64,000 nucleotides of DNA, taken from assembly GCF_000226975.2 (NCBI RefSeq), contig NZ_CP019285.1, positions 1,178,001 through 1,242,000 of the forward strand. The letters are read 5' to 3'. Numbering within the stretch: position 1 is the stretch's first letter; every line of letters begins with the position of its first letter. Under the pieces are notes generated by a model, which had not been told where the DNA came from, made no database searches, and saw only the letters and a list, made by a program, of their open reading frames with translations. Shown one piece after another: positions 42,699 through 64,000 of this stretch. A program made the position numbers and the translations under genes. Origin of the DNA: Halobiforma lacisalsi AJ5 (GTDB taxonomy: Archaea; Halobacteriota; Halobacteria; Halobacteriales; Natrialbaceae).

Positions 42699-43898
42699 TT
42701 ATCCGGCCGTCCGCCGGATCGCCTCGAGGCGCTCGACCGGTTCGACGCCGGCAAACAGGATCGTCGCGAACACGCGGTCGCCGTCCGGCCGCGGCGCGTC
42801 GCCGCCGAGCAACTCCCGCGAGCCGGTCCTCGACTGCACCGTTCGTCGGCCGTCGGAGATCGCCTTCCGGTTGAGCCAGGCGGGCGGCCCGCCGACGATC
42901 ACCATCGCGGCGTCGGCGTTCTCGCGGTCGCACTCGAGGGTAAGTTTCCCGTTGAGCGCCTTGCTGATCGTCGTCTCGACGGCGCTGACCGCCGACGCGG
43001 TGTCGACGCTCGACTCCGCCGAGAACAGGCCGAGCCCGAACCGGGAGCCCCCGTCGTCGGATTCGACCTCCTGTTCGCCGTAGCCAAGCGTCGCAACGAG
43101 GGTCTCGTCGCCCCCGTCGAGGACCCGTGCCACGTCGCTGGCGTCGATCACGGTTTCGGCGACCTCGCCGTCGCTCTCGCTCGCGGCTCCGGCGGAGAAA
43201 AACGCCGCGACCCGGGTCGCGAGGTCGCGGTTGAGCCGGTCGCGACCCTCCGCGAGACGCTCGCCGGTGCGGAGCCAGGCCTCGTTGTCGAAACACAGCA
43301 CTGCGCTCGCGAGGCCGTCGAGCCGTTCGAGCGTTCGGGCGGCGTTTTCTTCCGCGAGCGGGCGGGTGTGGTCGTCCGTGTCCTCGGGCCCGTCCGCGCC
43401 TTCGGCAGCCGCGTCCGCCTCCGCGCCCGACTCCGGCTCCGGTACGACACCCTCGACCAGCGGATCCTCCGGCGGTTCGAGTTCGCGTTCGGCCGGTATC
43501 GTCGCGAGGACGTAGACCGGCTTGTCGTACACCGCCCGGAGCGTCGCGACGAGTTCCGGCGCCGTTCCCCCGCCGGTCGCGCCTCCGAGGCCGACGACCA
43601 CGAGGAAGGCGTCCGCGATCAACGGCCGCCCGTCGTCCAGGTGCCGACTGAGTTCGTCGACTGACGCGTCGCCCACCTCGAACCCGCGCTGGAGGTTGCC
43701 GTTGAGCCCGTTCCGGATCGTCTCGCCGTACCGGTGCCGGTTCGACTCGGGAATCGCCTCGAGCGCCGCCAGCCCGTCCGTATCGGTGTCGAACGCGAAC
43801 GCATCGCCCACGAACCGGTGATCCGCCGGCTCGGCCGCCAGAATCGCGTCGGCGATCCGACACCCCGCGCCGCCGACGCCGATCACCTCGAGTTGCAT
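42699..43898 (-). CDS. CetZ/FtsZ3-like tubulin-superfamily GTPase
   Basis: 399 residues. The tubulin/FtsZ fold is visible: MQLEVIGVGGAGCRIADAIL at the start (nucleotide loop 1), the GTP-binding G-box GLGGATGGGTAPELVATLRA at about 103-122, and CFDNEAWLRTGE near 202-213, matching CetZ more than FtsZ. CetZ proteins control cell shape in haloarchaea; canonical FtsZ divides the cell. This paralogue has an acidic insert (about 143-182) and looks divergent. The ATG at 43898 is preferred to a GTG at 43913. Confidence 0.85.
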   Translation of the reverse strand: MQLEVIGVGGAGCRIADAILAAEPADHRFVGDAFAFDTDTDGLAALEAIPESNRHRYGETIRNGLNGNLQRGFEVGDASVDELSRHLDDGRPLIADAFLVVVGLGGATGGGTAPELVATLRAVYDKPVYVLATIPAERELEPPEDPLVEGVVPEPESGAEADAAAEGADGPEDTDDHTRPLAEENAARTLERLDGLASAVLCFDNEAWLRTGERLAEGRDRLNRDLATRVAAFFSAGAASESDGEVAETVIDASDVARVLDGGDETLVATLGYGEQEVESDDGGSRFGLGLFSAESSVDTASAVSAVETTISKALNGKLTLECDRENADAAMVIVGGPPAWLNRKAISDGRRTVQSRTGSRELLGGDAPRPDGDRVFATILFAGVEPVERLEAIRRTAG

Positions 43899-43974
43899 AT
43901 CCGGACCTATCACATCGGGTGGGTTTCACAGTTCCGTTCGCGGCCGCCGACGGTGCCGACCTCGAGACCTCGGT

Positions 43975-53563: not shown

Positions 53564-54682
53564 ATGACACTCTTACCGGTCGATACCGACGTCCTGGAAG
53601 ACGTCTGTCGTGACATCGCCCAGGACAACTACGGATTTATCTACGTCTCCGACCAGAAAGGGGAGATCAAGTCCGCCTACGAGAGCGCGGACGTGGGGCT
53701 GGTGAACGCGCGCTCGCTGTCCTCGAGCGACATGCGCAAGGCCCTGACGGAGATGGCCGCAGACGAGTTCGTCGACCTCGAACAGCTCAGGGACGGCGTC
53801 TTCTACGTCGACCCGTTCGGCGTGAAAGGGAACATGAACATCACCCGGGAGCTGACCAACCTGTTCGGTCAACGCCTCGTCGTTACGGGCGAGACGCTGC
53901 GCTCCCGGTTCTCGCTGGCGATCGACGACATGGAATTCTTCGCCGACGAACTCGCGGACCGGAACTACCTCCGCCGGATCACCGCTGGGAAACGCGACTA
54001 CTACACCATCGGCCCGCAACTCAAGGAACACGCCGACGACGTGGGCCTCGATTCCCGGCTCGAGCGGGAGGCCTCGAACGGCAAGATCGCCCACAGCGAT
54101 CTCGAGAGCGTCATCGACGTCGACGCGACCTCGGACGTGATCCGCTATCTCGACCGCGAGGGGTACATCGTCGACCTCGACGGGGAGTACCTGGTCGAGG
54201 AGGCCATCGACGAGTACGGTCGCTACCTCGCCGAGGAGATCGAGGAAGCAGTCGAGAACGAGTTCGAGGAGTCGAGCTACGTCCTCCGGGTCGGCGAGTT
54301 CGACCAGGTCGTGGAAAACGAAATCGAGAGCCGGTTCGACGTCCTCTCGCAGGCCCGCAGCGTCCGCGGCGAGATCCTCGAGGAGACCCGGGCCACGCTC
54401 GTCGACCGGCTCGGCCTCGAGGAGGGGCGCGAGATGGTCGAGGCAACCGACCCCTTCGAGGACGTCGTCGAGGATCACGCCAGGCGGATCCTCACCGACC
54501 TGAAGGCCGAACAGGACCAGCTTCCCGGCACCCTCCCCGAGTGGATCGAACTCGCCGAGGAACACTTCACGGAACTACAGGTGAGTTCGACGACGGCGGT
54601 CAACGAGCACGTCCGGGACGCCGTCCGGGAACGGTACCGGTCACTGGTCAACGAAGAAGAGTTCGGCGGAATGGCGGCGTGA
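53564..54682 (+). CDS. Tandem winged-helix-like protein, operon gene 1
   Basis: 372 residues, soluble. The first ~30 residues (VCRDIAQDNYGFIYVSDQKG) precede successive helix-helix-hairpin units: about 105-150 (TLRSRFSLAIDDMEFFADEL, then NYLRRITAGKRDYYTIG) and 173-213 (AHSDLESVIDVDATSDVIRY, then GYIVDLDGEYLVEEA). The C-terminal third is helical and acidic. The repeat of winged-helix-like units joined by a helical C-terminus recalls ESCRT-II or UFL1-type adaptor proteins; the resemblance is by pattern only. It is the first gene of a five-gene operon with a coiled-coil protein, a helical protein, an AAA+ ATPase and a propeller/CARDB-like protein. Confidence 0.7.
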   Translation: MTLLPVDTDVLEDVCRDIAQDNYGFIYVSDQKGEIKSAYESADVGLVNARSLSSSDMRKALTEMAADEFVDLEQLRDGVFYVDPFGVKGNMNITRELTNLFGQRLVVTGETLRSRFSLAIDDMEFFADELADRNYLRRITAGKRDYYTIGPQLKEHADDVGLDSRLEREASNGKIAHSDLESVIDVDATSDVIRYLDREGYIVDLDGEYLVEEAIDEYGRYLAEEIEEAVENEFEESSYVLRVGEFDQVVENEIESRFDVLSQARSVRGEILEETRATLVDRLGLEEGREMVEATDPFEDVVEDHARRILTDLKAEQDQLPGTLPEWIELAEEHFTELQVSSTTAVNEHVRDAVRERYRSLVNEEEFGGMAA

Positions 54683-54735
54683 CACTGACACGAGCAACTG
54701 CGAATCGGATCTGACACACCTCATCGACTACCACT

Positions 54736-55800
54736 ATGCCACAAAAGTACGAATTCGAACGGATCGAAAGCGACGGACAGGAGTACGTGATCGCCGACCC
54801 GGTAAACCAGACCGACGACCCCGTGCGTCTCGACGCCCGCTGGATCGAGGGCGACGACGTCGAGGGTGAGTGGGAGCGGGCCGTCCGGGCGATCATCAAG
54901 ACCGACCTGCTCGGTTCGATGGAGCTCAAGGAGGGCAACGGCCGGATCGACCGCCGCCGTGCCATCGAGACGCTCGCGTCGGCCAGCGACGAGGAGGGTG
55001 ACATCGTCACCAGCGAACAGCAGGCGGAAGCACTCCTCGAGTTCTTCGCAGCCGAGGACATTCTCGAGCTCCAGGGCGGCCAGGTCGTCATGCTCCGGAA
55101 TCCGAGCGACAACCCCGACGAGATCAACGGTCGGATGATCCTCAACTGGGCGGCGGCGATCGACGCCTGTGTCGAGAAGATCACCGAGACGATCGACCGG
55201 GTCGACAGCGCGAAACAGAAACTCGAGAACCGGATGGACGACATCGATCAGGACTCGGGCAAGATCGACGAACACCTCGAGGAGACTGCCCAGGAGCTCC
55301 GGAGCCTCGGCGACGGGGCGGGCGTTCCGGAGGATCCGTCGACGCTGCCGGCCGACGAGCGGGACCGCTTCCAGCAGCTCAAGCGGAAGCTGATCTACCA
55401 CAAGAAGATGAAGGAGGCCGACCAGGAGAACCTGGCCGAGAAAGTCGAGAGCGGCACGGCTCGGCTGGCCGACAACATCGAGATGCTCGAGTCCGCGAAG
55501 AGCACGCTCGCGAACAAGCGCGAACAGGTCCGCACGCAGGCGCTGAAGAAGCAGACGTTCCCCGACGAGGCGATGAACATCGTCGACAACATGGGCGAAC
55601 TGACGACCCAGTTGGCCGGCGTCGGCGGCATCGAGGAAGCGATCGAGGAGACCCCGGACCACGAGGTCGGCAGCGTCGTCGACGACGTGCTCGGCAACAT
55701 CGAGAGCGTCGGCGAGACCGCCCAGCAGACGGCCGGCGAGGAGGTCACCGACGCCGACGGGGCTGCGGAGACGGAAACGAGCGAACTCGAGATGTCGTAG
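54736..55800 (+). CDS. Coiled-coil protein with winged-helix-like N-terminus, operon gene 2
   Basis: 354 residues, soluble, charged. Residues 1-125 include a winged-helix-like part (ASDEEGDIVTSEQQAEALLE and ILELQGGQVVMLRNPSDNPD). Residues about 135-315 are almost entirely amphipathic helix (AIDACVEKITETIDRVDSAK, LENRMDDIDQDSGKIDEHLE, RLADNIEMLESAKSTLANKR). The tail after a flexible acidic segment ends SELEMS. A charged helical hairpin followed by an acidic, short C-terminal motif is the layout of ESCRT-III-type proteins that an AAA+ ATPase remodels; this is an analogy from pattern, not homology shown. 53 bases after gene 1. Confidence 0.7.
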   Translation: MPQKYEFERIESDGQEYVIADPVNQTDDPVRLDARWIEGDDVEGEWERAVRAIIKTDLLGSMELKEGNGRIDRRRAIETLASASDEEGDIVTSEQQAEALLEFFAAEDILELQGGQVVMLRNPSDNPDEINGRMILNWAAAIDACVEKITETIDRVDSAKQKLENRMDDIDQDSGKIDEHLEETAQELRSLGDGAGVPEDPSTLPADERDRFQQLKRKLIYHKKMKEADQENLAEKVESGTARLADNIEMLESAKSTLANKREQVRTQALKKQTFPDEAMNIVDNMGELTTQLAGVGGIEEAIEETPDHEVGSVVDDVLGNIESVGETAQQTAGEEVTDADGAAETETSELEMS

Positions 55801-55801
55801 G

Positions 55802-56539
55802 ATGCACGCCGATTCGTTGCTTCGAGGGGTCGGCCGGGTCGCCGAACAGGGAGAGCACCTGCTCTCCTTGCGGACGCTGTCGGGGCCCGACCCGTCGCGA
55901 CGGGTCGACGTCGCGATGGGCGCGCTCGTCGATCTCGCGGAACTGCTGCGCGCCGGTGCGCCGTTTCCCCCGCGACCCGAGGTTGCCGGCCGCGGCAACG
56001 ACTCGAGGGTTCCCCACCCGGACGGCGGCTCCCGGGAGTCGTCTCCCGACGACACCGGAACCGAGGACGCGCTCGTTCGGCGCGTCCTCGAGGTCGGCGA
56101 CGAGCACGACGAGGTGACACTCGAGGCCTTCGACCCCGCAGTCGCCGACCGCATCGCGGACGCGAGCCGGTTCGAGACGGTCGGTTCTCGCGTGGTCGTG
56201 CCGCTCTCGTCGGCCGTCCCGTACGCCCGTAACTGGCGGCCGGTCATCGAGGCCCTGATCGACCGCGTCGAGGATGCTCTCGAGGACTTCAGGCGGATCG
56301 TACGCCGGGTGCGGGCAGCGGGTGGGAACGGGACGCTCGTGACCGGCTGCGAGGCGGTCGTCGAGATGCTCGAGACGCTCGCACTGGTCGTACAGCGGGC
56401 CGACGCGGATGCACGGTACGTCCGTGAGCGGACCGACCACCGCCAGGGCGAACTGCTCACGACGGTCGAGCGAGCCGCGACGCAACTGCGACCACAGCAA
56501 CGGACTCGGTCCCAGACACGGAGTGACGACAATGCTTAA
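55802..56539 (+). CDS. Helical protein of unknown function, operon gene 3
   Basis: 245 residues, soluble. Residues 1-60 are helical ([20 protein letters not shown], then ALVDLAELLRAGAPF). A variable Ser/Gly/Asp linker (about 61-85) is followed by a long helical bundle (VIEALIDRVEDALEDFRRIV, then CEAVVEMLETLALVVQRADA, TVERAATQLRPQQRTRSQTR). The ATG lies one base after the previous stop and its end overlaps the AAA+ gene by eight bases, so it is tightly co-translated. No motif is recognised; an adaptor between the coiled-coil protein and the ATPase is the simplest guess. Confidence 0.65.
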   Translation: MHADSLLRGVGRVAEQGEHLLSLRTLSGPDPSRRVDVAMGALVDLAELLRAGAPFPPRPEVAGRGNDSRVPHPDGGSRESSPDDTGTEDALVRRVLEVGDEHDEVTLEAFDPAVADRIADASRFETVGSRVVVPLSSAVPYARNWRPVIEALIDRVEDALEDFRRIVRRVRAAGGNGTLVTGCEAVVEMLETLALVVQRADADARYVRERTDHRQGELLTTVERAATQLRPQQRTRSQTRSDDNA

Positions 56540-58379
56540 CCTGACACCAATACTGAAACGAGACCAGCCGACGTCACGCATCAAGATCGGAGCCAAGAAG
56601 GTCGGACCGAACACCGACATCGTCGAGATTCGCCACAACGACAGGCGGGCGTTCTTCTACGTCGACCCCGTCGACGACTCGATCGTCGACGGGATCGGTA
56701 ACAAGGTCCGGATGCACCAGAACGTCAAGACGGTGTTCGGGGGGATCGACCGGGGGAAGGACTTCCTCGTCGACCCCGACGCGGCGAAACGCGACGTCGT
56801 CGAGTGTTCGGCCGCGAAGATCCACACCAGCGAGGTGCCGCCCGACGAGCTCGAGCCGTTCCTCCGGGAGAACGACTACCTGCTGCACCCGATGGAGGAG
56901 GTCGTCCCCAAGGCCAACAGCGACGAACTCGCGACCTTCGAGGTCGCGGCGATGGAGCCGACGGGGTACAACACGCTCCGTGTAACCCACAACACCGACC
57001 TCGAGTTCATCGACGCCGGCGAACTGCGGGAACTGCGAGCGACGCGAAACGCGGCGAGCCACGGCCCCGGCGCGCCGGGACCCGGCGGCCCGGAGGAGGC
57101 GGCCGGCGACGAGGAGGAGGTGCAGGTGTCGCTCGAGCCGAAGAAACCGACCGTCAGCTTCGAGGAGGACGTCGCCGGACTCCCGGAGGTCAAGCGAACG
57201 GCGGAGAACCTGCTCGCGCTGTTCGATCCGGACGTTCGCGACGAGGTCGTCGAGCGGTACGGCGACGAGTTCGCCTCGCGGGGCAACAGCATGCTGCTGT
57301 ACGGGCCGCCTGGCTGTGGGAAGACCCTCATCTCGGAGGCGATCGCCTACGAGGCGAAGTACAACTCGAACATCGAGGACAGCTACGGTGAGGTGAAGTT
57401 CCTCGAGATCAAGGGCAGTGACGTCCTCTCGAAGTACTCCGGCGAGTCCGAGAAACGCGTCGAGGCGATCTTCGAGAAGGCCCACGGGATCGCCCAGGAG
57501 GGGTTCGCGGTCCTCTTCTTCGACGAGGTCGACACCCTCATTCCGGATCGGGGTGACGACTCCCTGCAACGCCACGAGCGGTCGCTGACCAACGCCTTCC
57601 TCCAGGAGATGAACGAGATCGAGGACAACCTGCTCGTGATCGGGGCGACGAACATGCCCTTCACCATCGATCCGGCAGCTACTCGCCGGTTCCCGATCCA
57701 GCAGTTCATTCCCCAGCCCAACGAGGAGGTGATGGCCGAGGTCTGGCGCAAACACCTCTCCGAGATGTCCGGCACCGAGGGGATCGATTACGACCGCCTC
57801 GGCGAAGCCTCGAAGGGGTACACGCCGGCAGAGATCGCCGACCGCGTCCTCGGCAGCGAACTGCAGCGGGAGTTCGTCGAGAGCGTCTACCAGCCGGACA
57901 GGGAGCCGATCGAGCCGAACACCGACTACTTCCTCGAGCGGCTCGAGGGGACCGACCCGAAGACGATTCGCCAGTACGTCGCCAGCGTCCGGACCCAGAT
58001 CGACGACCTCGAGGGGTATCCGGAACTGCGCCGGTACGTCGAGGAGCAGGCCGAGCGTCTGGGAATGCGACTGGGACCGGGGTCGGGGCCGTCCTCGCTC
58101 GAGACGTTGCTCGAGGCGGGGGCGAACGCTTCGGAGTCGAACGCGGATGGCGGTGGCGCTAACGACGGTGACGGTGACGGTGATGGTGATGGCGGTGACG
58201 GTGACGGTGACGGTGACGGTGACGGAGGCGAGAGCGGGGCCGGGGGCTCGAGTTCGGCCGTCGGCGCCGACGGCGGTACCGACGAGTCGGGCACCGCGGA
58301 CGACGGCGCGTTCGAGTTCGGTGCTGACGGCGATACCGGCGATACCGGCGACGACGGAGGTGGCTCCGATGGCCGATAG
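56532..58379 (+). CDS. AAA+ ATPase, Vps4/Cdc48-like clade, operon gene 4
   Basis: 615 residues. An N-terminal beta-rich domain (about 15-170) precedes one classical AAA module: Walker A GPPGCGKT (258-265), pore loop SKYSGESEKR (300-309), Walker B VLFFDEVD (327-334), sensor 1 GATN (371-374) and the arginine pair in ATRRF (383-387). The helical lid follows (YTPAEIADRVLGSELQ). A single AAA module with the S-K-Y/W-x-G-E-S-E pore is shared with Vps4, katanin, spastin and proteasomal ATPases. The C-terminal tail (about 545-615) is Gly/Asp repeat coded by GGTGAC units and ends in an acidic segment. It overlaps gene 5 by eleven bases. Confidence 0.9.
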   Translation: MLNLTPILKRDQPTSRIKIGAKKVGPNTDIVEIRHNDRRAFFYVDPVDDSIVDGIGNKVRMHQNVKTVFGGIDRGKDFLVDPDAAKRDVVECSAAKIHTSEVPPDELEPFLRENDYLLHPMEEVVPKANSDELATFEVAAMEPTGYNTLRVTHNTDLEFIDAGELRELRATRNAASHGPGAPGPGGPEEAAGDEEEVQVSLEPKKPTVSFEEDVAGLPEVKRTAENLLALFDPDVRDEVVERYGDEFASRGNSMLLYGPPGCGKTLISEAIAYEAKYNSNIEDSYGEVKFLEIKGSDVLSKYSGESEKRVEAIFEKAHGIAQEGFAVLFFDEVDTLIPDRGDDSLQRHERSLTNAFLQEMNEIEDNLLVIGATNMPFTIDPAATRRFPIQQFIPQPNEEVMAEVWRKHLSEMSGTEGIDYDRLGEASKGYTPAEIADRVLGSELQREFVESVYQPDREPIEPNTDYFLERLEGTDPKTIRQYVASVRTQIDDLEGYPELRRYVEEQAERLGMRLGPGSGPSSLETLLEAGANASESNADGGGANDGDGDGDGDGGDGDGDGDGDGGESGAGGSSSAVGADGGTDESGTADDGAFEFGADGDTGDTGDDGGGSDGR

Positions 58380-61300
58380 CTACCGTCAGGTCGGCTCCTT
58401 CGAGAGCGGTCGAGTCGACGCAGTCGGGGTCGGCCGCGGAGCGATCGCCCTCGGGATCGGCACTCGCGTCGAGGTCGTCGAGGGGAGCCGGTCGACCGCG
58501 ATCGACCACGGCGACCGGATCGACGACGTCGCCGTCGCCGATCGGGTGGTCGTCCTCTCGTCCGGGGACCTGACGACCTACTCCCGGGACGGCGACCGGC
58601 TCTGGAGCCAGGGAATCGGCGACGCACACGCGATCGCCGCCGTTCCCGACGCCGGGATCTGCGGGGTGCTCGGACCGGATCGCCTCCGTGCCGTCGAGAT
58701 CGCGACCGGACGACAACGGTTCGACGTCGACCGAACCCGCCCCGGCGGCCGCGACGACGAACTGCTCGCAGTGCCGACCGGCTTCCTGATCGCCACCTGG
58801 TCGTTCCTCACGCACGTCGACCTCGAGGGCGAGGTCGACTTCGACCGCGACCTCTCGGCGGTGATCCGCAGCGTCGGCCGCTGTGACGACGTCATCGTCG
58901 CCGCCTTGCAAAGCGACCAGCTCGTGGGACTCCAGGCCGGAACCGGGGAACTCCGCTGGCGGACGGAACTCGAGGCGACCCACGTCGCCCCGGTCGGCGA
59001 GGGATCCGTGCTCGTCGGAACGGCCGCGGGCACGCGCGCAGTCGGTGCTGACGGGGCGACCGAACCCGTCGGTGACCTCCCGAACGGCGCGCCGTACGCG
59101 ACGCCGGACGGGGGGATCGTCTGCTCCGTGCGCGAGGGGACGGTCTCGACGCACGTCCACGCGGGCGATCAGCTAGCGCTTGCCGTCGCGACGGACTCGG
59201 TCGGCGTCGGCGGGACGATCGACGTCGAGGTGACGAACCAGACCGATCGGGAGCGAACCGCCTCGCTCGCCGTCGACGTCACGGGTTGTTCGCTCTCGCC
59301 GAGCGATCGAACCGTCAGTGTAGACCCCGGCGGGACCGAAATCGTCGACTTTCCGGTGTCGTCGGTCCGCGCGGAGGGGGACGCGGACCTGGCGATCGCG
59401 GTCGACGGCTCCGTCGCTCACGAGGCGTCGATCACCGTCGAGGACGCCGCCAGCGGCGGCATCGCCGTCGAAACGGCCCTCGAGACGCGCACGATCGAGG
59501 ACGGCGTCGCCGAACTCGAGGTCGCAGTCGAGAACGTCGGCGGGGTTTCGCTCGATAGCGTCACGTTGCTCGAGACGGAGGCCGGAACGGGCGAACTCCC
59601 GGCCGGCGAAACCTGGACGGGGACCGTGACTCGTCCCTACGAGCCCGAGCGCCGCGTCTCGGTCGGGCTCGAGGTCGCTCGCGGGGATCGGCGTCGGGAG
59701 TACGCACCGACGTGTACGCTCCCGTCCGCCCCGACGATCGATCTGGAATCCGGTCGGGACGCGCTTCGGGCGACCGTCGGGCTCGAGGGGGACGTGACGC
59801 TGTCCGATCGCCTGGTCATCGAGATGCCCGGAGCCGGACGCGTCCGGTCGCCGGTGACGATCGACGGCGACGAACTGCTGCTGGTCGTGCCCCAGTACGA
59901 GGAGGGGACGGCCCGCATTGGCTTCGACGCGCTCGGGATCGACGAGCGGATCCGGCTGTCGGATTCGGGTCCGTTCTCGACGCCGTCGCGTTCGAGTAGC
60001 CGGTCGGTGTCGGGAGCGGGGTCCCAGTCGCGTTCACGTTCGCAGTCCCCTTCCCGTTCCCAATCTCGATCCCGATCCGGCACCGATAGTGGAACCGAGT
60101 CCCGATCCGAGTCCCGTCCCCGCAGCGAGGCGACCGACGACACCGCTCGCTCGGACCCGTCAGAAACGGGATCACGAACGCGGGACGAGTCCCGTTCTCC
60201 GGCCGACGACGGATCGATTCCGGCGGCCGACGATGGCGACGACCGATCGGCTTCCGACACGACCGGATCACCGGCTCTCTCGGCGACGCGTCGCGTCCCC
60301 GATGCCGAGCCAGCGATCGGCCACGCGGTCCGCGATCGGATCGTCCTGCGAAACGAGGGCGACGGTCCCGCCGAAGACGTCGTCGTTGCAGTCGGTGACG
60401 ATCAACGCCGGGTCGGTACCCTCCCCGCCGGCGAGACGGTGCCCCTCGAGCGGGCGGTAGGCGTCGTCTCCCCGGACGGCGTCGTGCTACCGTCGGTGGA
60501 GATCGAGGTGGGGGACGCGGTCGTCGACCGTCTCCCAGACCGCCGTCTCGAGGCGTCCGTGGGAGGTATCGCCGTCAAGGCCGCGGTGGACCCGGACGAG
60601 GGGACGGTGGCTGCCGACCTGGTGAACCGCGACGATCGGGACTGTCGGGTGCTGGGGCTCGAACTCGCCGACGCACCCCGCCCGGAATCGCTTGGCGAGC
60701 GACTCGAGGCCGGCGAAACGACGACCGTGGCAGCTTCCGTCGCTCCCGACGGGCAGTTAGAAGCGCTGGGAGAGGGCGAGGCCGCTCCCCTCTCGATCGC
60801 CGTCCGGTACGCCGATGGGGAAGAGGAGACGATCGACGCGCTGGCGACGGTTGCCCCGCTCGAGGCCGCTGGTGACGGCGCGGCCGCCGGTGGCGAGGGT
60901 GGGGACGATCTCCTCGACGAACGGCCGCTCGCCGTCGAAATCGGCCCGGAAACCCAGGCTGCAGGCGAGTACGGCTCCGTCGTCCTCGTCTTCGAGAACG
61001 AGAGCGATCGCGCGCTGTCGGACGTCTCCGTCTCGGCCGAGGGCGATCCGATCAACGAGATGTTCTACTCGGAGGCCCGCCGCGAGCGACTCGCTGCCGG
61101 CGACTGGATCGAACACTTCGTCGATCTCGAGGCCGGCATCGAGGACCCCACCTTCGAGGCAGTGGTGAGCTACGCCGTCGACGGTGCCGAACGGGAGTAC
61201 ACCATCCGGGCGTCGGGCCCGGCCGTCGCAGACGAGGACGCCTGGACCGACGACCACCTCGAGGCGTGGTCGGTCGAACGACTCGAGAGCGCGGAGTCGT

Positions 61301-61380
61301 CGGCCCCCGATTCGGGGGCGACGCCGTCGGTTCCCGAACTCCCGTCGTCGCTGTCGACGCCGCTTCGCCGGGGTAACTGA
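58369..61380 (+). CDS. Beta-propeller plus CARDB/NEW3-like Ig domains, cytosolic, operon gene 5
   Basis: 1003 residues with no signal peptide or membrane segment. Residues about 5-260 form repeated short strands with PQQ/WD-like turns (VVLSSGDLTTYSRDGDRLWS, VAALQSDQLVGLQAGTGELR). From about 270 on there are Ig-like CARDB/NEW3 modules (e.g. IDVEVTNQTDRERTASLAVD, AELEVAVENVGGVSLDSVTL, VVAVGDDQRRVGTLPAGETV, VVLVFENESDRALSDVSVSA), separated by a Ser/Arg/Asp-rich disordered region (about 540-630). CARDB/NEW3 modules are normally extracellular or in secreted proteins, so a cytosolic member joined to an AAA+ ATPase operon is unusual. It may recognise or cage substrates for the ATPase. Confidence 0.8.
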   Translation: MADSYRQVGSFESGRVDAVGVGRGAIALGIGTRVEVVEGSRSTAIDHGDRIDDVAVADRVVVLSSGDLTTYSRDGDRLWSQGIGDAHAIAAVPDAGICGVLGPDRLRAVEIATGRQRFDVDRTRPGGRDDELLAVPTGFLIATWSFLTHVDLEGEVDFDRDLSAVIRSVGRCDDVIVAALQSDQLVGLQAGTGELRWRTELEATHVAPVGEGSVLVGTAAGTRAVGADGATEPVGDLPNGAPYATPDGGIVCSVREGTVSTHVHAGDQLALAVATDSVGVGGTIDVEVTNQTDRERTASLAVDVTGCSLSPSDRTVSVDPGGTEIVDFPVSSVRAEGDADLAIAVDGSVAHEASITVEDAASGGIAVETALETRTIEDGVAELEVAVENVGGVSLDSVTLLETEAGTGELPAGETWTGTVTRPYEPERRVSVGLEVARGDRRREYAPTCTLPSAPTIDLESGRDALRATVGLEGDVTLSDRLVIEMPGAGRVRSPVTIDGDELLLVVPQYEEGTARIGFDALGIDERIRLSDSGPFSTPSRSSSRSVSGAGSQSRSRSQSPSRSQSRSRSGTDSGTESRSESRPRSEATDDTARSDPSETGSRTRDESRSPADDGSIPAADDGDDRSASDTTGSPALSATRRVPDAEPAIGHAVRDRIVLRNEGDGPAEDVVVAVGDDQRRVGTLPAGETVPLERAVGVVSPDGVVLPSVEIEVGDAVVDRLPDRRLEASVGGIAVKAAVDPDEGTVAADLVNRDDRDCRVLGLELADAPRPESLGERLEAGETTTVAASVAPDGQLEALGEGEAAPLSIAVRYADGEEETIDALATVAPLEAAGDGAAAGGEGGDDLLDERPLAVEIGPETQAAGEYGSVVLVFENESDRALSDVSVSAEGDPINEMFYSEARRERLAAGDWIEHFVDLEAGIEDPTFEAVVSYAVDGAEREYTIRASGPAVADEDAWTDDHLEAWSVERLESAESSAPDSGATPSVPELPSSLSTPLRRGN

Positions 61381-63849: not shown

Positions 63850-64000
63850 CACCCACCGTCACGACGGACCCGACCTGCGCCCGTTCGTAGGTCCGTTGCC
63901 ATGCGAAGATCCGCCCCAGCAGGATCGTCCCCAACAGTCCGACGATCACGCCGTACCCTACGAGCACCGACGCCGACGCAATCGCCAGCGACAGGCGAGC
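63836..64000 (-). CDS. C-terminus of a membrane protein gene cut by the window end
   Basis: The last 54 codons of a gene on the minus strand. They encode one membrane segment (ASVLVGYGVIVGLLGTILLG) and a short cytoplasmic tail (RIFAWQRTYERAQVGS onward). Its stop lies inside the first codons of the NEW3/CARDB-like gene, the usual sign of one operon. Its function cannot be told from this fragment. Confidence 0.65.
   Translation of the reverse strand, partial: ARLSLAIASASVLVGYGVIVGLLGTILLGRIFAWQRTYERAQVGSVVTVGDGDV

Follow-up and report, generated by a model that had tools for sequence, protein, structure and literature searches.

The 64,000-nucleotide stretch of the Halobiforma lacisalsi AJ5 genome analyzed here (contig NZ_CP019285.1; hereafter the window, within which positions are numbered) contains five genes, coding for P1, P2, P3, an AAA+ ATPase, and P5, whose order and predicted domains match a published archaeal group, Halo_adaptin, proposed to be distantly related to the endosomal sorting complexes required for transport (ESCRT) (Makarova et al. 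2024; PMC10936438). We found that this operon is one part of a 16-gene cluster. The other part, 11 minus-strand genes at 61.5–80.0 kb which mostly lie past the window end, codes for three tubulin-like GTPases and eight membrane proteins, and both halves are inherited together even where they are unlinked. Membership in a proposed ESCRT-like group accounts for most of the locus, and its surprising part lies outside the region considered in the first-pass annotation, which correctly delimited five genes at 53564–61380 but ended the unit there, leaving out a convergent half whose conserved genes continue to approximately 79976. In the interpretation that we tentatively favor, and whose chance of being right we put just short of even, the five genes may encode the cytosolic, ATPase-containing part of an envelope-associated machine that is built of two halves and combines a tubulin scaffold with an AAA-driven coiled-coil module.

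All five genes are on the plus strand. P1 (53564–54682, 372 amino acids [aa], predicted winged-helix repeats) is separated by 53 nucleotides (nt) from P2 (54736–55800, 354 aa, a winged helix and long helices), which is followed after 1 nt by P3 (55802–56539, 245 aa), a fast-evolving protein whose model places a winged helix between a hairpin and three helices. The ATPase gene (56532–58379, 615 aa, one AAA module) overlaps P3 by 8 nt and P5 by 11 nt. P5 (58369–61380, 1003 aa) appears to be a cytosolic protein with beta-propeller and immunoglobulin (Ig)/CARDB-like parts, on the basis of sub-threshold matches to PQQ-propeller (E = 3e-5) and CARDB (E = 0.1). The five same-strand genes noted in the first-pass annotation, the last four of them one base apart or overlapping, were thus confirmed. 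As for the single TATA box proposed for them, a weak TATA-like element, TTTAGTAT, is located approximately 30 nt upstream of the P1 start codon (ATG).

A class-wide search detected P2 in 38 of 391 Halobacteria genomes, belonging to 16 of 86 genera; two of the genomes with the cluster are low in GC (47–49%) and may belong to Haloquadratum. We compared 38 loci from 37 other genomes, one of which has two copies. In this neighborhood survey, which the first-pass annotation had proposed, homologs of P1, P2, the ATPase, and P5 were found in the same order in 36 loci, and the remaining two are truncated by contig ends. Identity to the window proteins falls to approximately 27–40% for P2 and exceeds 50% throughout for the ATPase, and P3 is too diverged for blast detection in some of the loci. 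Since the order recurs across related loci, the five-gene arrangement is real and conserved rather than a product of chance.

That ESCRT-related systems outside Asgard archaea had been proposed, as the first-pass annotation stated, is correct, and the main text of PMC10936438 describes Halo_adaptin as an ESCRT-like group found only in Halobacteriales, names the genus Haloquadratum, and proposes vesicle formation or protein sorting as its role. Like that group, the window operon has the order winged-helix protein, winged-helix/coiled-coil protein, small helical protein, ATPase, and propeller/Ig protein, and CetZ-related, Ig, and membrane proteins are present in the locus. The reference identifiers of the group are arCOG11740, arCOG11741, and WP_014555335.1; P1 and P2 are arCOG11740-like and arCOG11741-like by gene order only, and P3 corresponds, by position only, to the candidate termed PspA-like or ESCRT-III-like; the published scheme calls P5 adaptin-like. 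There are also differences. A single CetZ-related protein is mentioned in the main text, whereas here there are three tubulin families and eight membrane proteins, the two halves can be separated, and some genomes have TubC loci without P2. Beyond what the main text reports, and allowing that the supplements may list some of these features, the three tubulin families, the full second half, the co-occurrence of unlinked halves, the TubC loci without P2, the joint divergence of P2 and P3, and a complete plasmid cluster are new. No later paper using the name Halo_adaptin was found in the literature searched.

The second half converges on P5. Its first gene, P6 (61519–63852), encodes a signal peptide, Ig-like domains (NPCBM_assoc, E = 1.8e-11), a helical part, and a C-terminal transmembrane (TM) segment, and 34 of the loci in the comparison have a conserved counterpart. 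P7 (63836–64867, 343 aa), which spans the window end at 64000, has a signal peptide, a helical ectodomain, and a C-terminal TM segment. Genes past this point were read from the same genome, with coordinates extrapolated in window numbering: P8 (64870–67917), TubA (67925–69151), P10 (69152–71257), P11 (71254–72351), a small TM protein (72348–72635), TubB (72632–73924), P13 (74284–76323), TubC (76532–78160), and P15 (78270–79976), all on the minus strand and kept in this order in the genomes compared. Hydrophobic segments were found in P6, P7, P8, P10, P11, the small protein, P13, and P15, several of which have ectodomains or coiled coils, whereas no convincing hydrophobic segment was seen in P1–P5 or TubA–C. 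The tubulins are among the best-conserved proteins of this half, and P11 and the small TM protein are the least conserved. The next gene after P15 reads as a Ski2-type helicase.

All three tubulin-like proteins match Pfam Tubulin above the cut-off of 33 bits (TubA 35.9, TubB 60.2, TubC 43.4). Multiple alignment with FtsZ and CetZ of the same genome showed that TubA–C share the GTPase domain of these families and retain the T1 glycine loop, T3, T4 (GGGTGNG in TubA, GGGTGCG in TubB, KGTGCG in TubC), and the T7 motif D-x-x-[DE]. TubC differs from both families by an N-terminal Cys/His zinc-finger-like stretch and by a lysine in place of a glycine in T4. In a tree whose CetZ and FtsZ references were taken from the window genome only, TubA, TubB, and TubC each formed a separate deep clade (support 100/99–100) outside FtsZ and outside CetZ, and their assignment to CetZ was rejected, the CetZ clade (98/96) leaving out all three. 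The window genome has nine tubulin-superfamily genes, of which two are FtsZ. One of the others, outside the cluster at 42699–43913 on the minus strand, is a divergent CetZ-like gene (T4 GGATGGG) that groups with CetZ (98/96) and adjoins open reading frames that read as TrpS-like and tRNA-endonuclease-like. The FtsZl1 (Pfam Tubulin_2) systems (Makarova and Koonin 2010; PMC2875224) likewise have a tubulin-like GTPase accompanied by membrane proteins and accessory proteins; they differ from the window system, in which Tubulin_2 and vWA genes are absent and the AAA/winged-helix operon is present in addition.

The distribution of TubC was then compared with that of P2. TubC was found in 40 of the 391 genomes, namely all 38 that have P2 and two divergent genomes (G081 and G031) in which P2 was not found; the co-occurrence gave a Fisher P-value of approximately 8e-51, uncorrected for relatedness among the genomes. 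Outside Halobacteria, approximately 200 genomes of the same phylum showed no TubC. Three Halopenitus genomes retain both halves although these are separated by 265 kb in one, by 71 kb in another, and lie on different contigs in the third; the second half is still in order, and the ATPase gene stays with P1–P3 rather than with the tubulins. Gene-to-gene distance congruence was moderate (Spearman 0.5–0.77), a measure that alone cannot separate co-function from shared ancestry.

In both TubC-bearing genomes without P2, TubC is next to a large propeller protein and TM/coiled-coil proteins, and these two loci suggest that a tubulin/propeller core can exist without the AAA operon. Because TubC loci occur there, the ATPase appears to belong with P1–P3 rather than with the tubulins. 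The locus of G081 (L174, 5896–19543) contains a TubC-like gene with a zinc-finger-like N-terminus, near which lies a 1144-aa Tubulin_2 protein (FtsZl1), a further likeness to the FtsZl1 systems, as well as a 1127-aa propeller protein and membrane proteins. That of G031 (L177, 5357–19881) has a TubC-like gene, proteins which by appearance resemble P10 and P13, a 1058-aa propeller/Ig protein, a 456-aa protein with a glycine-rich tubulin-like GGSGNG motif and without a Pfam match, and a MoxR AAA gene, whose bpMoxR match is just below the cut-off (26.9 vs. 27 bits).

In the window genome the cluster belongs to the 4.16-Mb contig, the largest one, and a complete copy is present on plasmid PHS2 of the culturable laboratory strain Halobacterium salinarum R1, from P1 (OE_RS12000) to P15 (OE_RS12075), with ISH elements upstream and with TubB and TubC annotated as "cell division protein FtsZ" (L182, 20001–41107). 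Natrinema and Halobaculum plasmids also carry it. In a genome of another family (G140; L044, L082), P1, P2, the ATPase, and the tubulins are 82–88% identical to those of the window, which may hint at horizontal transfer. The second copy in one genome (L076, G340:C2:1–20000) is cut at the contig start, and its TubC is split into two pieces, one with a stop.

With regard to the ATPase, the motif SKYSGESEK and a single AAA module, both reported in the first-pass annotation, were confirmed. The protein also contains GPPGCGKT, FFDE, and GATN; Walker A and B, sensor 1, and the arginine fingers are intact, and the motor residues are invariant in 11 homologs. We built a tree with Methanomicrobia-type Vps4 (full-length matches to the CdvC model), yeast Vps4, Cdc48 D1 and D2, and PAN. 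The ATPases of the system formed one clade on the Vps4 side, the branch uniting them with Vps4 being supported at 100/98, and approximately unbiased (AU) tests rejected a grouping with Cdc48-D1 (P-value = 0.004) or PAN (P-value = 0.006). The single module and the pore-1 motif SKYSGESEK are shared with Vps4/CdvC, and the tree position tentatively points the same way. On the other hand, the system ATPase has an acidic C-terminal tail and lacks MIT, which is absent in the window protein and is not among the best 25 of the 42 families matched by the 11 homologs; CDC48_2, the Cdc48 N-subdomain, was matched in four of the 11 (best E = 7e-5). An N-terminal adaptor domain of the MIT type, for which the first-pass annotation suggested looking, was therefore not found, and a Cdc48-like one is present in some members, in agreement with the VAT-N-type domain and the lack of MIT described for Halo_adaptin ATPases in the main text of PMC10936438. 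A search with the CdvC family NF041006 as a discriminator of Vps4 and Cdc48 in haloarchaea failed, giving no match over the cut-off.

In the arginine-finger region, the Pro-Gly of Cdc48 and PAN is missing in all members of the system. Yeast Vps4 shares this deletion, whereas Main-clade archaeal Vps4 does not. Together with the Vps4-side position and the co-occurrence of the operon with tubulins, the deletion in yeast Vps4 and the system might indicate a motor which severs TubA–C filaments like katanin or spastin, with P1–P3 as targeting adaptors. We consider such a motor decidedly unlikely, because TubC loci occur in genomes without P2, the ATPase gene remains with P1–P3 when the halves are unlinked, and the Pro-Gly is also missing in another AAA gene of the window genome (L007); moreover, neither katanin nor spastin was represented in the tree.

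P1 and P2 are strongly acidic (net charge −50 and −48, respectively). P1 is predicted to contain winged-helix repeats from its sequence pattern and from sub-threshold Pfam matches to MarR, Mnd1, and Cullin families, which agrees with the tandem winged-helix part of its earlier description; its supposed likeness to ESCRT-II or UFL1 found no support in a PDB profile search, which matched neither and returned G6PDH (chance-like) and SelB (E = 0.14). The AlphaFold2 model of P2 (mean predicted local distance difference test [pLDDT] score 76.5, predicted template modeling [pTM] score 0.68) contains an N-terminal beta part, a winged helix at approximately 46–120, long helices at 132–191 and 206–272 followed by shorter ones, and a flexible acidic tail. 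That of P3 (pLDDT 82.8, pTM 0.73) has an N-terminal hairpin, a winged helix at 83–132, and three helices. PDB profile searches of P1, P2, and P3 gave chance-like matches only (designed alphaReps and G6PDH; CdvA for P2, E = 0.19), and hhalign detected no homology between P1 and P2. P2 and P3 gave a weak alignment around the winged helix and the "NW" helix (E = 8e-4, probability 24%), and are possible paralogs.

The best VIA matches were the MukF helical domain for P3 (Z 12.6–13.6) and included IncA (Z 10.5) and BAR (Z 8.0) for P2, values that are about the range expected for helical bundles; the likeness between P3 and MukF may reflect a common helical arrangement only. P2 also has a sub-threshold MukF_M match (E = 0.003). 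With winged-helix proteins adjoining tubulins and the cluster sometimes carried on plasmids, these matches could be read as signs of a DNA or plasmid segregation or transfer system, in which a tubulin and a winged-helix adaptor act as in TubZ-TubR alongside MukE/MukF-like proteins. We regard this as most improbable: the MukF scores are near the helical-bundle background, P1 and P2 are acidic, the system has eight membrane proteins, its window copy is on the largest contig, and inspection of three intergenic stretches revealed no TubZ-TubR-like centromere repeats.

P2 and P3 have diverged jointly. In three Halorubrum genomes, identity is 37–38% for P2 and 26–30% for P3, as against 75–87% for P1 and the ATPase, a range which also covers the tubulins in the two genomes measured. 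At four loci (L053, L054, L055, L183), P2, and P3 where found, are far more divergent than the surrounding genes, in the manner of a pair replacement. Such joint divergence suggests a direct partnership of P2 and P3, which may have been exchanged together. It would also suit a diversifying specificity cassette in a conflict or defense device akin in build to MoxR-vWA-propeller ternary systems, as would the patchy distribution, the plasmid carriage, and the MoxR gene in the variant locus of G031. However, the PADLOC matches were limited to generic AAA proteins (IetA, TRIP13) and weak coiled-coil ones, nuclease and toxin domains were not found, and viral contigs yielded no relative of P1, so we consider a conflict device highly unlikely.

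Gene content, conservation, co-inheritance, and intact GTPase and ATPase motifs were observed directly, and the two-part envelope machine offers the following possible mechanism for them. On the inner face of the membrane, TubA–C would polymerize into GTP-dependent filaments, which P10, P13, and P15, all membrane proteins, would hold in place together with P5; the latter would act as a propeller/Ig adaptor that may bind cargo or a complex of P6, P7, P8, and P11. This scaffold would carry a winged-helix/coiled-coil assembly made of P2 and P3. The ATPase, as a single ring recruited via its Cdc48-like N-domain, would thread and disassemble P2/P3, as Vps4 does with ESCRT-III. The purpose might be local remodeling of the membrane or surface layer, such as protein sorting or the budding of vesicles. 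A role in cell division is less probable because the window genome has its own two FtsZ genes.

Several points weigh against this reading. Filament formation, membrane anchoring, and cargo are predictions from comparison and are unproven. For the ATPase, the placement with Cdc48-D2 is not firmly excluded by the AU test (P-value = 0.052), and the best PDB matches by raw similarity are Cdc48. The system clade sits on a very long stem (3.6 changes per site) that falls outside the Vps4 proteins sampled, and the Vps4-side placement is therefore support rather than proof. Neither Snf7 nor PspA was matched by the window P2 or occurs among all seven families found for 16 members of P3, and neither is among the best 25 of the 38 families for 20 P2 members. 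Fold searches of the P2 and P3 models singled out no ESCRT-III fold; Foldseek gave no match under E = 0.001 for either, with CdvB2 only at rank 31 (E = 0.41). Finally, with 38 of 391 genomes, the distribution is patchy, which implies that the function of the cluster is not essential to haloarchaea.

The same results bear on a strict ESCRT system, in which P3 (or P2) would be a derived ESCRT-III polymer able to constrict membranes, the ATPase Vps4, P1/P2 ESCRT-II-like, and the tubulins accessory. The proposal in the main text of PMC10936438, the ATPase tree, and the P2 model, with its winged helix followed by long helices, argue for it. Given the lack of PspA/Snf7 in the proteins and families named above, the low rank of CdvB2, the MukF matches of P3, and a minus-strand half that is the larger of the two and has the tubulins among its best-conserved proteins, we judge it unlikely. 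The ESCRT-III identity of P2/P3 is unproven. For P2, described earlier as an ESCRT-III-like coiled-coil protein, the model predicts a winged helix and long helices, whereas the ESCRT-III likeness found no support in the searches.

FtsZ/tubulin-type GTPases and Vps4-type ATPases are usually viewed as alternatives for membrane work. It is possible, and in our view somewhat doubtful, that the cluster represents a previously unrecognized cytoskeletal machine, a single envelope-spanning apparatus in which three tubulin-superfamily GTPases, each from a separate family, act together with eight membrane proteins and an AAA ATPase from the Vps4 side, and in which the AAA/winged-helix operon plugs into an older tubulin-plus-propeller core that also occurs on its own. 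If so, the membrane-remodeling principles of tubulin/FtsZ and ESCRT/Vps4 would be joined in one prokaryotic device. The PHS2 cluster makes this machine testable in H. salinarum R1, which would also allow a test of whether the proposed haloarchaeal ESCRT systems remodel membranes.

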